Shown here in pieces: positions 11,386-18,939 of a DNA stretch of 64,000 bases. The notes under the pieces are model-generated. The model saw only the letters and a program-made list of their open reading frames with translations. It had not been told where the DNA came from and made no database searches. How positions within the stretch are numbered: position 1 is the first letter of the stretch; each line of letters starts with the position of its first letter. This DNA is from an uncultured Flavobacteriales bacterium (GTDB lineage Bacteria; Bacteroidota; Bacteroidia; Flavobacteriales_D; Crocinitomicaceae). A program made the position numbers and the translations under genes. The stretch is from assembly GCA_913051935.1 (NCBI GenBank), contig CAJXCU010000005.1:1-64000 (forward strand). The letters run 5' to 3'.

Positions 11386-11991
11386 GTAATAAACTCCGCT
11401 AATTCTTCTTCTTCGCAGCAGCATGTCTTTAAAAGAGACGTTTATTCGAATTTCAGCTCCTAAAGGAAGTTTTTTTATTTTTCTGATAACTGCCTGGCTT
11501 AATTGAGCGCTTTTGAGTGTCACAACTTCTTTCTTATTTAGAATTATTGAAAATTCGGTTATATTAAAAGTCATTGCAGGCCACGCCTCACTTGGTCGAA
11601 TTACTGGAACCAGGTTTGTAGTGTCCAATGTTCCTTCAGGGCCAACATCCCCTATAAACAATACCATTTGTGGCCCTTTTAATATCTTAAAAGAAAACTT
11701 ATCAATAAATATTTTTTCTCTGCTTCCGTCTGGGCTATCCACATATGAAGCAACATTCAGCAGTCCTGTTGATCGAGTGACAGTATCTAATACCTCTATT
11801 AAATATTGACCCATTTTATTTGTGGGGTGTATTTTAAGAGTTCCATCAAAACATATCGGCGTTCCTTGTTTTATATAAAACTCGTTCACAATGTCGGTGT
11901 AAAAAACAGAGTCTTTTTTACTATTAAAAGTATAGTTTTGTGCCTTGATACTAAAAGAAAGTAAAGAAAAAACAACAACTATTTTAAACAT
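11380..11991 (-). CDS. Small secreted protein, weak resemblance to the GldM C-terminal domain
   Basis: A 203-residue protein with a signal peptide (about 1-17, ending IKAQ). I do not recognise it with certainty. The pattern from about residue 90 onward (FKILKGPQMVLFIGDVGPEGTL, then FNITEFSIIL and a closing basic loop LRRRRISGVYYL) recalls the C-terminal immunoglobulin-like domain of the gliding motor protein GldM, but the rest of GldM is absent. Its ATG overlaps the rpiB stop codon as TAATG, so it is translationally coupled to rpiB. Its 3' end overlaps that of hemW by a few bases in convergent orientation. Function unknown. Confidence 0.7.
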   Translation of the reverse strand: MFKIVVVFSLLSFSIKAQNYTFNSKKDSVFYTDIVNEFYIKQGTPICFDGTLKIHPTNKMGQYLIEVLDTVTRSTGLLNVASYVDSPDGSREKIFIDKFSFKILKGPQMVLFIGDVGPEGTLDTTNLVPVIRPSEAWPAMTFNITEFSIILNKKEVVTLKSAQLSQAVIRKIKKLPLGAEIRINVSFKDMLLRRRRISGVYYL

Positions 11992-12425
11992 TAAGAACAG
12001 GGTATTTTATTTACTCTACGTTGGTGCCGTCCGCCTTCAAATTCAGTCTTAACAAAAACATCTATACATTTTTTCGCGTTTGAGGTTGATATATAACGTG
12101 CCGGCAGAGATAAAACGTTGGCGTCATTATGCTGCCTTGCTAATTCGGCAATTTCTGAGGACCAACACAGAGCGGATCTAACACCGCTATGTTTATTGGC
12201 AGACATGCTTATTCCATTGCCAGACCCGCAAATTAAGATGCCTTGGATACCTTCTTCTTGTACCATCTTTGCCAAAGGGTGTGCATAATCAGGATAATCT
12301 ATACTTTCGGTTGAATGGCAACCAAAATCAACAACATTATATCCTTTCTTTTCTAAATACAAAACGAGCTCGCATTTAAGATCATAACCAGCGTGATCTG
12401 CGCCTATTGCTATTTTATTCTTCAT
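11991..12425 (-). CDS. rpiB: Ribose 5-phosphate isomerase B
   Basis: Interconverts ribose 5-phosphate and ribulose 5-phosphate in the pentose phosphate pathway. The family pattern is clear over 144 residues: IAIGADHAGYDLK at the N-terminus, then YPDYAHPLA and GSGNGISMSANKHSGVRSALC with the active-site cysteine-containing loop ILICGSGNG. It is the last gene left of the A+T-rich gap at 12426-12851 and is transcribed away from it, coupled to the downstream small secreted protein gene. Confidence 0.93.
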   Translation of the reverse strand: MKNKIAIGADHAGYDLKCELVLYLEKKGYNVVDFGCHSTESIDYPDYAHPLAKMVQEEGIQGILICGSGNGISMSANKHSGVRSALCWSSEIAELARQHNDANVLSLPARYISTSNAKKCIDVFVKTEFEGGRHQRRVNKIPCS

Positions 12426-12598
12426 TTTTTAAAATTAAAATTAATTCATATTTAAATCAATATTGTTAATTAATCGTTGATAACTATGTGTATCTTTTTT
12501 TTCAAAAGAATCTTTTTTTTTCAATCAAAACCTGTTTTTAAAACCTCTTATTTGCTCGGATTATTTATACCGTTTTTTTCAATGTTTTATGCACAAAA

Positions 12599-12630
12599 AA
12601 TTATAAACATTGTTTTTTAATTATAAACAT
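12599..12630 (+). repeat. Direct repeat AATTATAAACAT, two copies 20 bases apart
   Basis: The 12-mer occurs at 12599-12610 and 12619-12630. The start-to-start distance of 20 bases is about two helical turns, so a protein binding both copies would meet the same DNA face. Each copy contains TTATAAACA, one base off the DnaA box consensus, and they follow an exact box at 12587-12595. This suits DnaA sites or an operator pair. Confidence 0.55.
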
Positions 12631-12829
12631 ATTAAGAAGGATTAGAAAATACATTATTTGTTAATTTATTGTTTACAAGGCGAATACCTAAATATAAAAT
12701 GTTCATTTCTTTTCAAAATTGTTTATTTGTTTCAAAAAAACTCTTTTTCTTTTTTTTATTCACAAATGAACACTCTTAATAATAGTAGTAATTTTAATTA
12801 ATTCTTTTTTTTATAAAATATTAAACGCT

Positions 12830-12837
12830 TAATCTTG
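12830..12837 (+). promoter_or_regulatory. Probable -7 element for the DUF4175-RsbW-like-ybeY operon
   Basis: TAATCTTG matches TAnnTTTG at seven of eight positions and ends 14 bases before the ATG at 12852. The extreme A+T content around it makes chance matches likely. Confidence 0.35.
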
Positions 12838-12851
12838 TTCATAAGTAAAAA

Positions 12852-15800
12852 ATGAATAATCTGGATCGTATAAAAGACGAGCTCAATGCATTTATTGAGA
12901 AGTTTTATAAAAATCAATTTATAAAAGGGATTATTGTTTCTTCTATCGTTTTTTTATGTTCTTTATACTTAATCTCTTTGGTTGAGTTTTTTGGACGTTT
13001 CAACTCAACAGTTCGATTTTTCTTTCTTTCTTTCTTCGTTGTAATTAATTTTCTTTTTGCCTTAATTTATTGTCTTGTACCCCTTTTCAATTATATTAAG
13101 CAATCACGTAGGTTAAGCCCAGAGAAAGCCTCTAAAATGATTGGTTTAATTTTTCCTGATATTGCCGATCAATTAACAAACTTGTTGCAATTAAATAGAA
13201 GGTTGTCAATTCAGGAAGATGAGCAGGTTAATCTTTTAAGGGCATCCATCGAACAAAAAGCTGAAAAAATAAGTGCAATTGAATTTTCGAGTGGAATATC
13301 TTACAATGAAAATAAAAGGTATTTAAAATATTTTTTACCCGCCATTCTCATATTTTTTATTTTTTTAGGTTTTTTACCCGAATTATTTACTCAAGGATCC
13401 TTTCGTGTTTTAAATTTTTCAAAAGAATTTAAAATTGAAGCACCTTATGAATTCATGTTAAACTCTGCAGATATTAGTATTACAGAAGGTGAGGATATTC
13501 ATTTAAATCTCAATTTAATCGGAGAGGCTTTTCCTAACAAATTATATATCAATTCTAGTCAAGGTACATTTCTAATGACTAAAGTGAGGTCAAATTTATT
13601 TGAATATACTTTACGAAATCCTAAAAACAACGAAACATTTTATTTCTCTTCAAAAGAACACAAAAGTGACACCTATACAGTAGAAGTTTTAGGTAAAACT
13701 GTTTTAGGTAAATGGGATGCAAAAATAACCTATCCCCCATACTTAAAAAGACAAGATGAAGTAATTAAAAATTCAAGTGACTTTTCTGTACCTGAAGGTA
13801 GTATTATAACATGGAGTGGAAGAGCAAAGAATGTATCTAAGGTGCAGATTGAATTAGATTCAATCAAAGAAACATTTTTAAAATCCGGATTTACATATCG
13901 TAAACAATTTATAACAAGTAGTTTATTAAACGTTTGTCTTACGAACAAATACACTGAAAAACGAGATACTTTAAGTTATAAAGTGTTCGTTGTAAAAGAT
14001 GAATTCCCATCTATTTCTGTTACCGAAAAAAGAGATAGTACACGTAATGGTGCCTTTTACTTTGAAGGAGTTGTTTCAGATGATTATGGTTTAACGGCAT
14101 TAGATTTTAATTATTCGATAAACTCTATGAATAAAAGCAATAGAGCTGAACGAATAAAAATTCTAAATGTAAAAGGAACTAAAAATAGTTTTAGATATTA
14201 TATTGATTTTAACCTATTGGATATTTCTTTAAATGACGAAATAAGCTATTATTTTTCTGTGAAAGATAATGATGGTTTTAACGGTTACAAAACAACAAGA
14301 AGTGGGCAATTTTCTTACAAGCTTCCAGATCTAAAAACATTGAACAAAAAAAGAGAAGAGGAACAAGGGGATATTAAAAAAGAAATAAGTGATGTATTGA
14401 AAGCATCTCAAAAATTTCAGGAAGAAATAAAGACATTAAAAAAAGAGCTTAGAAATAGTAAGTCAAATCAGTGGAATAAGCTTAATGATCTTAAAAATTT
14501 AAAAGACCAACAACAAGAATTATTGAATAAACTAGAAAGTATTCAAGAAAAAATTGAAAATTCCACACAAGAAAAAAATAAACTTTCTGAACTGGATAAG
14601 GAATTATTAAAGAAACAGGAATTATTAGAACAATTACTTAATGAAGTAATGGATGACGAATTAAAAAAATTATTGGAGGAATTAGAAGAACTACTAAAAA
14701 ATAATGAGCAGAAGGAGTTAAATGAAAAAATGGAAGAACTTGATCAAAGTGCCGAGAATATGGAAAAGCAACTTGATCGCAGTCTGGAAATGCTTAAAAA
14801 ATTACAAGTAAATGAGAAAATAGATGATTTAGAAAAAGAACTGAAGGAATTGTCTAAAAAACAAAAGTTAATTGCGGAAGAAAAGGAGAAGTCATTAGAA
14901 GAACAAAATAATATCAATAAAGCATTCAATGAAATACAAGAGGAATTAGAAGAATTAAAAGAGCTAAATAAAAAACTTGAAACACCTCTGAAAATAGAAG
15001 ACACAAAATCAACTGAAGAGCAGATAAGTGAAAACCTTAAACAGGCTGAAGAGCAAATTCAAAAAAATAAAAAAAATAAAGCAACGAAAAATCAAAATTC
15101 AGCGGCACAGCAAATGCAAGAACTTGCCGAAAAATTAGATAAAATGCAAAAGGATTCTGCACAAAAACAGGAAGAGGAAGACATGGATGATTTAAGAAAA
15201 ATTCTTGAGTCTTTAATTTTACTGAGTGTTGAACAAGAAGAAGTAATGGAAAATATTCAAAGGGTTCAAGTCAATGATCCTGCTTTTCGAAAATACGGTA
15301 GGGTTCAAAGACGAATTAATGACGATACTGATATTGTTAAAGACAGTTTATTAGCATTAGCAAAACGTCAGCCGATTCTCGCTACGTTTATTGATAAAGA
15401 ATTGGGTGATTTAGAATTTAGTCAGGATAAAACTATAGATTTTATAGGGGATAGAAAGAAACGAAATGTTACTGAAAATCAACAGGGCGCAATGACATCT
15501 TTCAATAATTTAGCCCTTCTATTAAATGAGGTTTTACAGAGTATGCAAGCTCAAATGCAAATGATGACGCCTGGTAGTGGTCAGTGTAATAAACCAGGAG
15601 GTAAAGGAAAACCAAAGGCTGGTCCGGGTATGAAACCAGGAGACATGAAAGAAATGCTGAAAAATCAGCTGAATCAACTGAAAAAAGGCATGAATAAAAA
15701 AGGTGGTAAAGATGGAACGAGTGGAGATAACGGTTCAGGTGGAATAGGCAATAAGGGTTTAGCTAAAATAGCAGCAGAACAATCAGCGATACGTAAAAAA

Positions 15801-16166
15801 CTGGAAGAATTACGAAATAAATTAAACAAAGAGGGTAAGGGCGCAGGAAATGGCTTGAACCCTTTGATAGAAGAATTAAAAGAGCAACAAAAAAATATTG
15901 TCAATAAAAATATTACTAAAGAAACAATTAATAGACAGCAGGAGATTTTAACAAGGTTATTGGAAAGTGAAAAAGCATTGATAGAAAGAGGGTTTGAGGA
16001 AAAAAGAGAATCTAAAACAGGAAAAAACACCCAAAATAGTAACCAAAATCGGTTTAATCAGTATAACAAAGAAAAACTAAAGAAAATCGAATTATTACGT
16101 TATGCTGAGCCATCCTATAAAAAATATTATAAAGAAAAAGCAAACGAATATTTTGATGAAAATTAA
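12852..16166 (+). CDS. DUF4175 family membrane protein with long coiled coil
   Basis: A 1104-residue protein of a Bacteroidota-specific family with no known function. Two N-terminal hydrophobic helices lie at about 24-46 and 55-80, a third at about 160-178, followed by a beta-rich external domain (about 190-490). From about 495 to 760 it is a very charged Glu/Lys/Leu/Gln coiled coil. A later region contains Gly/Pro/Lys/Met-rich low-complexity sequence (about 890-985) and a basic, Asn-rich C-terminus. The gene is visibly richer in A and T than neighbouring housekeeping genes, mostly through Lys, Asn and Ile codons. It is followed after 14 bases by the RsbW-like ATPase gene and then ybeY, which suggests one transcript. 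A structural or cell-envelope role is plausible but unproven. Confidence 0.8.
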   Translation: MNNLDRIKDELNAFIEKFYKNQFIKGIIVSSIVFLCSLYLISLVEFFGRFNSTVRFFFLSFFVVINFLFALIYCLVPLFNYIKQSRRLSPEKASKMIGLIFPDIADQLTNLLQLNRRLSIQEDEQVNLLRASIEQKAEKISAIEFSSGISYNENKRYLKYFLPAILIFFIFLGFLPELFTQGSFRVLNFSKEFKIEAPYEFMLNSADISITEGEDIHLNLNLIGEAFPNKLYINSSQGTFLMTKVRSNLFEYTLRNPKNNETFYFSSKEHKSDTYTVEVLGKTVLGKWDAKITYPPYLKRQDEVIKNSSDFSVPEGSIITWSGRAKNVSKVQIELDSIKETFLKSGFTYRKQFITSSLLNVCLTNKYTEKRDTLSYKVFVVKDEFPSISVTEKRDSTRNGAFYFEGVVSDDYGLTALDFNYSINSMNKSNRAERIKILNVKGTKNSFRYYIDFNLLDISLNDEISYYFSVKDNDGFNGYKTTRSGQFSYKLPDLKTLNKKREEEQGDIKKEISDVLKASQKFQEEIKTLKKELRNSKSNQWNKLNDLKNLKDQQQELLNKLESIQEKIENSTQEKNKLSELDKELLKKQELLEQLLNEVMDDELKKLLEELEELLKNNEQKELNEKMEELDQSAENMEKQLDRSLEMLKKLQVNEKIDDLEKELKELSKKQKLIAEEKEKSLEEQNNINKAFNEIQEELEELKELNKKLETPLKIEDTKSTEEQISENLKQAEEQIQKNKKNKATKNQNSAAQQMQELAEKLDKMQKDSAQKQEEEDMDDLRKILESLILLSVEQEEVMENIQRVQVNDPAFRKYGRVQRRINDDTDIVKDSLLALAKRQPILATFIDKELGDLEFSQDKTIDFIGDRKKRNVTENQQGAMTSFNNLALLLNEVLQSMQAQMQMMTPGSGQCNKPGGKGKPKAGPGMKPGDMKEMLKNQLNQLKKGMNKKGGKDGTSGDNGSGGIGNKGLAKIAAEQSAIRKKLEELRNKLNKEGKGAGNGLNPLIEELKEQQKNIVNKNITKETINRQQEILTRLLESEKALIERGFEEKRESKTGKNTQNSNQNRFNQYNKEKLKKIELLRYAEPSYKKYYKEKANEYFDEN

Positions 16167-16180
16167 TATTTGTAAATGCT

Positions 16181-16594
16181 ATGAAAGACGAGTATAGTGT
16201 GATAGAGTCTCTTAAACTTACTTCATCGTATAATTCCGTAGCGGATATTGAACGTCTAATTGACAAAGTATGTACTAGTGTTGGTGTGAATGAAGATGCC
16301 TACGGGAACGTTCTAATTGCTGTTACAGAGGCTGTAAATAACGCCATTCAACATGGAAACAAAGAGGATGAGGGGTTAATCATAAATGTTTCTGTTAAAG
16401 ACAACCCAAAAAATGTGTGTTTTAGTGTAAAAGATGAGGGAATGGGGTTTGACTATGATAATCTACCAGATCCTACTGCTCCTGAAAATCTTCTAAAAGA
16501 AAACGGTAGAGGAATTTTTCTCATGCGGAACCTCGCTGATAAGGTTGAATTTACTGGAAAAGGAAGTGAAGTTTCCCTGTTTTTTAACAAATGA
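16181..16594 (+). CDS. RsbW/SpoIIAB-like ATP-binding protein (GHKL anti-sigma-factor kinase family)
   Basis: A stand-alone HATPase domain of 137 residues. The N box is EAVNNAIQHGN (about residues 48-58), G1 is DEGMGFD (about 86-92) and G2 is GRGIFLMRNLAD. This spacing is typical of serine/threonine kinases that bind sigma factors and phosphorylate an anti-sigma antagonist, such as RsbW. No STAS-domain antagonist or sigma factor gene is nearby, so the partner is unknown. Its stop overlaps the ybeY ATG by four bases, so both are probably translated together; this pairing looks usual in Bacteroidota. Confidence 0.85.
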   Translation: MKDEYSVIESLKLTSSYNSVADIERLIDKVCTSVGVNEDAYGNVLIAVTEAVNNAIQHGNKEDEGLIINVSVKDNPKNVCFSVKDEGMGFDYDNLPDPTAPENLLKENGRGIFLMRNLADKVEFTGKGSEVSLFFNK

Positions 16595-16995
16595 CATCTG
16601 TCTTTTTTGAAGATATAGCTCCTATTAATATTCCTGAGGTTTATTTTTCAAATAAAATATCTTATATAATTGAAAATGAGGGTTTTATAGAAGGGAATAT
16701 CGTCTTAGTCTTCTGTTCTGACGACTATTTACTTGACCTAAATATTAAACATTTAAACCACAATTACTTTACCGACATTATAACCTTCCCTTATCTGCAC
16801 GATGAAAACTTGACAGGTGATCTTTTTATAAGTATTGATCGGGTAAAAGCAAATGCAATAAAAGAAAATGTTTCTTTCGACATAGAATTAGAACGTGTAA
16901 TTTATCATGGGGTATTGCACCTTTGTGGTTATAACGATAAAACGGAACAACAAATTAATGAAATGCGCTCCAAGGAAAACTTTTATTTACAGTAA
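16591..16995 (+). CDS. ybeY: Endoribonuclease YbeY, rRNA maturation factor
   Basis: Metal-dependent RNase needed for 16S rRNA 3'-end processing and ribosome quality control. The zinc-binding motif appears as HGVLHLCGYNDKT near residue 110; the third histidine of the classical HGxLHLxGYDH form is replaced, as is usual in Bacteroidota versions. TDIITFPY in the middle is the other conserved block. Length 134 is typical. It overlaps the RsbW-like gene and is followed two bases later by the first parS site. Confidence 0.88.
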   Translation: MTSVFFEDIAPINIPEVYFSNKISYIIENEGFIEGNIVLVFCSDDYLLDLNIKHLNHNYFTDIITFPYLHDENLTGDLFISIDRVKANAIKENVSFDIELERVIYHGVLHLCGYNDKTEQQINEMRSKENFYLQ

Positions 16996-16997
16996 AG

Positions 16998-17013
16998 TGT
17001 TTCACGTGGAACA
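16998..17013. promoter_or_regulatory. parS site 1 (ParB/Spo0J binding site)
   Basis: TGTTTCACGTGGAACA is the reverse complement of an exact match to the parS consensus TGTTnCACGTGAAACA. It lies two bases after the ybeY stop codon. Together with the second site it forms a 17-base perfect inverted repeat. parS sites normally cluster near the chromosome origin and load the ParB/SMC segregation machinery. Confidence 0.85.
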
Positions 17014-17039
17014 ATTATGTTTATTTTCTTTTTTTGATT

Positions 17040-17047
17040 TAATTTTG
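17040..17047 (+). promoter_or_regulatory. -7 promoter element for mnmG, overlapping parS site 2
   Basis: TAATTTTG is an exact TAnnTTTG match. Transcription would begin around 17052, inside the second parS site, with a leader of about 16 bases before the mnmG ATG at 17068. ParB bound there could interfere with the promoter. Confidence 0.5.
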
Positions 17048-17061
17048 TTCCACGTGAAACA
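17046..17061. promoter_or_regulatory. parS site 2 (ParB/Spo0J binding site)
   Basis: TGTTCCACGTGAAACA matches the parS consensus at every position. It is inverted relative to site 1, with centres 48 bases apart, and ends six bases before the mnmG start codon. No parA or parB gene is inside the window. Confidence 0.88.
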
Positions 17062-17067
17062 AACAGG

Positions 17068-18939
17068 ATGTTAACAAAGTACGATATTATTGTTGTTGGT
17101 GCCGGACACGCCGGCTGTGAAGCAGCACATTGCGCCGCAACCATGGGAAGTAGTGTTCTTTTGGTGACTATGAACATGAATACGATTGCTCAAATGAGCT
17201 GTAATCCAGCCATGGGCGGTGTTGCTAAGGGTCAAATATTGCGCGAGATTGACGCGTTGGGTGGGGGCTCTGGTATTGTGAGTGATAAAAGTGCTATCCA
17301 GTTTCGAATGCTCAATAAATCAAAGGGTCCTGCAATGTGGTCTCCAAGAAGTCAAAATGATAGACAGATGTTTTCAACGGAATGGAGGATGCTTCTTGAA
17401 CGCAACAAAAATGTAGATTTTTGGCAGGACATGTGTACGGGAATTATCGTTGAGAAAGGAAAGGTTTTAGGAGTTAAAACCGCTCTAGGAATAGAAGTTA
17501 AATCAAAAACAGTCATACTTACCAATGGTACGTTTCTAAACGGCCTTATACATTTAGGTGAAAAGCAGTTTGGTGGAGGAAGAGCAGCAGAAAGAGCATC
17601 TACTGGAATAACAGAGCAGTTAGAAGAGCTTGGTTTTTCTTCAGGAAGAATGAAAACCGGGACCCCTCCGCGGGTTGATGGAAGATCATTAAATTATTCT
17701 AAAATGGAAGAGCAACCAGGAGACCCGTCTCCATCTAAATTTAGCTTTTCAGATACAAAACCATTATCGAAACAACGCCCTTGTTTCATAACTTACACAA
17801 ATCCTGAAACACATAAAACATTAGAAAAGGGTTTTGACCGTTCTCCAATGTTTAATGGCGCAATTAATAGTACCGGACCTAGATATTGTCCTAGTATTGA
17901 GGATAAAATAAATCGTTTTGCCGACAGGGAAAGGCATCAGATTTTTGTTGAGCCAGAGGGTTGGGACACCATTGAAATTTATGTAAATGGATTCAGTACC
18001 TCTTTACCAGAAGAAATTCAACTCGAAGCAATGCGAACAATACCTGGTTTCGAAAAAGTCAAAATGTTTCGCCCTGGTTATGCCATAGAGTATGATTATT
18101 TTCCACCGACACAACTTAAACACACGCTTGAGACAAAACGTATTGATAACTTATATTTCGCAGGTCAAATAAATGGAACGACAGGTTATGAAGAGGCCGC
18201 TTGCCAGGGATTAATGGCTGGAGTAAATGCAAGTTTGAAAACAAGAAATAAAGCCCCCTTTCTTTTGTCTAGAAGTGAGGCTTACATAGGAGTATTAATA
18301 GACGATTTGATTACAAAAGGAACGGACGAACCATATCGTATGTTTACAAGTAGAGCCGAGTATAGAATTTTATTGCGTCAAGATAATGCCGATATAAGGC
18401 TTACCCCCCTTGGTTTTTCGATAGGTCTGGCTAGTGAAGAAAGAATAAATAGGGTTAATTTGAAAATAGAGGGCACACAAAACTTTAAAAAACATTTAAG
18501 AAAAATAGCTATTTCTCCGGCTGACGTTAATCCGTTTTTAAAGAGTATAGGTAGTGCGCCTATCTCACAGAAAGTAAAGCTTTCTTCAATTATTACCCGG
18601 CCTAAGGTGTATTTAAAAAACCTGTTAGATCTCTCTACGGAGGCAAAGGAAAAGGCTTTAATTGCAAATACCACGCATGATGAAATTTTGGATCAAGCAG
18701 AAATACAAATGAAATATGATGGGTATATTGAAAGAGAGCAAGACCAGGCCGAAAAAATGAATCGTTTAGAAAACGTAAAAATCCCATTGGATATGGACTT
18801 TAAAAAATTAAACAGCCTCAGTTCTGAAGCAAAAGAAAAATTATCGGAAATTAAACCTGTTACAATCGGACAAGCTTCACGGGTGTCAGGTGTTTCACCA
18901 AGTGATATTTCTGTACTTTTAGTATATCTTGGAAGATAA
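17068..18939 (+). CDS. mnmG: tRNA uridine-34 carboxymethylaminomethyl modification enzyme MnmG (GidA)
   Basis: FAD-dependent partner of MnmE that modifies the wobble uridine of several tRNAs. The dinucleotide-binding motif [11 protein letters not shown] lies at about residues 8-18, followed by [11 protein letters not shown] and the signature [10 protein letters not shown] near residue 200 and [14 protein letters not shown] near 368. At 623 residues it is full length, with the C-terminal helical domain present. The gene is often close to the origin in bacteria, and here it directly follows two parS sites. Confidence 0.96.

Follow-up and report, generated by a model that had tools for sequence, protein, structure and literature searches.

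The window, by which we mean the whole 64,000-nucleotide stretch analysed here, carries two parS sites inside the 72-bp gap between ybeY and mnmG (Table 1). A sequence pattern search confirmed the reading of the first-pass annotation that both 16-mers match at every position: each fits TGTTNCACGTGAAACA without a mismatch on one of the strands, and both agree with TGTTNCACGTGNAACA, the pattern by which chromosomal parS sites were recognized. The 17-base perfect inverted repeat described earlier was likewise recovered, since the arms 16998-17014 and 17045-17061, which include one flanking base, are 17-nt perfect reverse complements 30 nt apart; however, as each parS site is near-palindromic, this repeat largely follows from the sites and is not independent evidence. 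A search of the complete assembly (2,364,614 bases in a draft of 100 contigs, 90.7% complete) returned these two exact sites only, so that the many scattered motif copies named beforehand as an argument against parS were not found. The reversed control pattern gave 0 matches when no mismatch was allowed, whereas with up to 2 mismatches the motif was found at 12 places as compared to 9 for the control. By arithmetic, a palindromic site with 14 fixed positions is expected about 0.009 times per 2.36 Mb, and therefore the pair cannot be ascribed to chance.

Table 1. Coordinates of the parS sites, the candidate origin and the surrounding genes in the window.
Feature	Position	Strand	Remarks
rpiB	11991..12425	-	adjoins candidate oriC; family matches
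Candidate oriC, intergenic gap	12426..12851		holds the AT-richest 400 nt (GC 0.177) of the scanned stretch upstream of mnmG
DnaA box TTATTCACA, box-like AATGAACAC, spacer TCT, trinucleotide run TAATAATAGTAGTAA	12756..12791	+	DnaA-trio-like, predicted
DUF4175 protein	12852..16166	+	conserved neighbour
RsbW-like histidine-kinase-type ATPase	16181..16594	+	conserved neighbour; below RsbW cut-offs
ybeY	16591..16995	+	gene call, family matches
parS site 1 (distal), TGTTTCACGTGGAACA on plus strand	16998..17013	-	TGTTCCACGTGAAACA on minus strand; exact match; equivalent site in relatives
Predicted sigma-A -7 box (TAnnTTTG) of mnmG, TAATTTTG	17040..17047	+	ends on first G of the parS site 2 core
parS site 2 (proximal), TGTTCCACGTGAAACA	17046..17061	+	exact match; 14-nt core ends 7 nt before mnmG ATG
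mnmG (gidA), tRNA-modifying enzyme	17068..18939	+	TIGR00136, 840.7 bits

A ParB gene was expected in a genome with such sites, and one was found above the family cut-off, located on a different contig immediately behind a ParA gene and forming the single ParA-ParB pair. Its product comprises the domains ParB_N, HTH_ParB and ParB_C and carries the motif GERRYRA, which we take to have a role in CTP binding. It is alignable with solved ParB/Spo0J structures, and alignment with Caulobacter ParB revealed that the equivalents of R173 and G201 are retained (numbering from PMC7383237). As stated in a section of the same study, these two residues are R and G in ParB but Q and R in Noc, and mark binding of parS as opposed to the Noc site (PMC7383237). 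Noc, which acts with NBS in nucleoid occlusion, is a ParB paralogue, and its model TIGR04285 matches the ParB of this genome at 226 bits; however, this score is under the cut-off of 315, and the residues at both positions are those of ParB. The genome of the window hence encodes a chromosomal ParB that is cognate to the sites and has specificity residues of the parS type.

Comparison of the ybeY-mnmG gap in relatives, which had been suggested as a check, revealed parS-type sites there too. The nearest named relatives of the mnmG gene belong to Crocinitomicaceae metagenome genomes (87-88%), so that the window probably stems from this family of Flavobacteriales. Exact parS sites, numbering 1-3 per genome and commonly single, were present in 53 of 60 family genomes, the reversed control giving 0 in 60/60, and MnmG was found in 58 of the 60. 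Nearly all genomes with exact sites (52/53) have one no more than 250 bp from one end of mnmG; in the exception, G020, the exact sites lie 455 and 611 bp upstream of mnmG and a one-mismatch site lies 9 bp upstream. Three near-complete genomes devoid of exact parS (G004, G012, and G038) possess one-mismatch sites at the same place, while the remaining four of these seven (G021, G028, G032, and G057; 59-84% complete) were left out of the assessment. The 250-bp surroundings of mnmG contained a site with 2 or fewer mismatches in 76 of 80 named loci, the exceptions being L283, L287, L288, and L300.

The tie to mnmG extends beyond the family. In a phylum sample of Bacteroidota, exact parS was present in 111 of 148 genomes. 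Of 143 genomes assessed, 123 had a site with one mismatch or none no farther than 250 bp from mnmG (upstream in 44, downstream in 38, on both sides in 41) and 20 lacked one there, these counts not being independent since the genomes are related. At the family level, at least one genome with a site at mnmG was found in 27 of 33 families; no genome of f7, f9, f16, f19, f23, and f30 in the sample had one within 250 bp, the sites of f19 lying 457-503 bp downstream of mnmG and the exact parS of f16 and f30 being located elsewhere. In 100 fetched mnmG loci, the 250-bp flanks contained 81 sites without a mismatch, 139 with up to 1 and 166 with up to 2, as compared to 11, 20 and 24 in the other 447,140 bp, while the reversed control gave no site in the flanks at any of the three levels and 0, 0 and 1 sites elsewhere. 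As ybeY was detected upstream of mnmG only in part of the phylum sample, parS is tied to mnmG rather than to the whole neighbourhood. This tie is unusually firm, and the candidate origin described below is close. Our literature search, the coverage of which did not extend to Livny 2007, reportedly the main parS survey, found no report of it in Bacteroidota, and no priority is claimed. Two local arrangements were seen besides: f11 (L044, L048, L069, L071, L315, and L316) shows three parS-like sites just past mnmG, at about 1, 38 and 158 bp and with similar spacing between loci, and further sites about 5 kb off, and f16 (L320, L321, and L322) has parS sites in pairs that are spaced by 46-50 bp and located between other genes, the mnmG tie being lost or moved in this family.

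Since the genome of the window is a draft, the position of the origin was argued from a relative. In the complete genome of G059, the cumulative GC-skew minimum, read contiguously over 1.55-1.95 Mb, lies at 1,758,001 and parS at 1,745,808, i.e., 12 kb apart, and parS is 1.74 Mb away from dnaA and 2.3 Mb from parB (dnaA at 64-1458, mnmG at 1.74 Mb, and parB at 4.08 Mb). Skew sampled at 20 points was negative throughout 0-1.4 Mb (7/7 samples), positive between 1.63 and 3.95 Mb except at 2.10 Mb (-0.026; 10 of 11 samples positive) and negative at 4.19 and 4.42 Mb; taken alone, this coarse series placed the origin at 1.18-1.62 Mb, roughly one sampling step off mnmG, and the contiguous 400-kb read shifted the estimate to 1.758 Mb. 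In G115, mnmG (2.567 Mb) falls within the coarse range of 2.28-2.80 Mb, and dnaA and parB fall outside it. For G059, dnaA was rejected as an origin marker given its distance from the skew minimum, and simple DnaA-box density was also discarded, the densest 600-bp window being at 1.856 Mb, away from that minimum. As a separate observation, parB lies near the antipode of parS in G059 (2.30 of a possible 2.32 Mb) and at 1.91 of a possible 2.18 Mb in G004, and has no antipodal position in G115.

In the window, the gap adjoining rpiB, 4.2 kb from parS, is judged from its sequence to be a likely replication origin. The order DUF4175, rsbW-like, ybeY, and mnmG is retained in all 21 family loci besides the window; rpiB was found in 12 of these and in the window, and not in the other 9 fetched loci. 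Within the 700 nt before rpiB, 28 DnaA boxes with at most 1 mismatch were counted across 13 sequences including the window, as compared to a mean of 2.82 (sd 1.74, max 8) in 200 shuffles, although one sequence, L335, had none. Local skew minima scatter in the fetched family loci. A DnaA-trio origin, or basal unwinding system (BUS), is described, in a part of the cited source, as one or more DnaA boxes followed by a spacer and then DnaA-trios (PMC8287927). The candidate oriC displays this architecture by sequence, with a box, a box-like repeat, a short spacer and a TAA/TAG run, the last being the only run of at least four TAR trinucleotides in the 64 kb; it differs from BUS in that it adjoins rpiB rather than dnaA and is a prediction. 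The element was aligned in 11 sequences including the window, which were chosen because it was already visible in them. Thus, clustering of parS near the origin, and with it the origin-proximal domain proposed in the first-pass annotation, is supported indirectly by the GC skew of G059 and by the conserved candidate oriC.

Taken together, we are highly confident that the two sites are a chromosomal parS cluster, in other words the bacterial centromere belonging to a ParABS system of flavobacteria, situated about 4.2 kb away from where replication likely starts. The system shares with the chromosomal ParABS of B. subtilis, C. crescentus, and P. aeruginosa the same 16-bp site, present in few copies near the origin, the canonical ParB domains with parS-type recognition residues and the location of ParA beside ParB. 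Contrarily to these species, the sites of complete family relatives are unlinked to parAB and dnaA, those of the window's family are fixed to mnmG, and Smc-ScpA was not detected in the family. Following this, we propose that the single ParB, encoded elsewhere beside ParA, would bind both parS sites, close as a CTP clamp and slide over nearby DNA, and that ParA would subsequently move the newly replicated origin region apart. A centromere and a candidate origin are thereby named for a large and little-studied flavobacterial group where dnaA does not indicate the origin.

Of the earlier interpretation, the identity of parS, the ParB gene and the proximity to the origin stand, whereas two functional roles, the loading of SMC and a benefit of the inverted spacing, do not. 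Loading of Smc-ScpAB condensin by parS at the origin is known from other bacteria, as part of the cited work describes for B. subtilis (PMC13342612), and Smc and ScpA are present in other members of the phylum: a set of 27 mostly complete genomes spanning it yielded ScpA in 16, and 6 of 20 genomes had a full-length Smc that passed the cut-off. In the window's family, however, ScpA was detected in 0 of 60 genomes by a search that was positive in 9 of 14 control genomes, and full-length Smc above the cut-off in 0 of 7 genomes tested, so that canonical SMC loading is unlikely and we consider the chance that this pair loads Smc-ScpAB to be very slight. Segregation in this family would then probably proceed without Smc-ScpAB, which makes it a natural test of the role of ParB-parS where that complex is missing. 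For two gut Bacteroidetes, a section of another report mentions no condensin (PMC10197239). Smc was seen in several Bacteroidota families (G061, G092, G133, G110, G123, and G117) and not in the tested f5 and f6 genomes or in the window's family.

The close inverted spacing, at first suggested as a possible aid to the loading or spreading of ParB clamps, varies among relatives. At least two upstream cores were present in 75 regions, and the last pair contained at least one palindromic core in 60 of these; among the 15 resolvable pairs, 10 were direct and 5 inverted, the latter being the class of the window, and the centres of the last two cores were 24 to 171 apart. Since both orientation and spacing vary, the inverted pair is not a conserved design, and the inverted arrangement was dropped as a functional feature. 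The same variability led us to reject a reading in which the repeat would form a 17-bp hairpin in the mnmG-leader RNA and serve as an attenuator or a terminator, its resemblance to parS being secondary. Although the transcript of the gap folds at -26.3 kcal/mol (z -4.24 against shuffles), single sites are common, sites also occur past the mnmG stop, no T run follows the hairpin, and a transcript from the start predicted below, inside parS site 2, would miss one arm or more; we therefore regard such a hairpin as extremely improbable.

The overlap of the proximal site with the predicted -7 box of mnmG is a new point beyond the first observation. According to a portion of a transcription-start map of Flavobacterium, the sigma-A box TAnnTTTG is located at -12 to -5 (PMC9723704), which would place the mnmG start at about 17052, inside parS site 2; a clear -33 box was not seen upstream of this -7 box in the window. 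Among 97 distinct upstream regions from the family and near relatives (107 before merging), a parS core lies at most 16 nt from the mnmG ATG in 87, and 7-12 nt away in 82 of these. In 43 of the 87 proximal cores, the first G is also the last base of a TAnnTTTG match, as compared to 3 of 90 other upstream cores and against a background of 84 out of 18,764 positions overall. Because of this overlap, ParB at the proximal parS would probably also touch mnmG transcription, and its binding may compete with RNA polymerase at the predicted promoter. The same counts would suit parS sites that serve merely as operators, bound by ParB or by another palindrome-binding regulator of mnmG, with no role in segregation. 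Yet 44 of the 87 proximal cores have no such overlap, sites past the mnmG stop are unlikely operators of its promoter, and the skew minimum lies close to parS in G059; hence, this reading appears highly unlikely, and the parS cluster is better understood as a centromere. The fixed tie to mnmG, being a strong regularity, calls for an explanation. Speculatively, and on balance rather doubtfully, the centromere of most Bacteroidota might have stayed tied to the promoter and end of mnmG despite moved neighbours, dnaA and parAB, and, in the window's family lacking Smc-ScpA, ParB loading and mnmG transcription might compete at a single start site, by which segregation would be coupled to the capacity for translation. 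Additionally, among the paired cores, 37 of 37 asymmetric proximal parS sites had C in their upstream half and A in the ATG-side half, perhaps because A-rich sequence is favoured ahead of the start codon.
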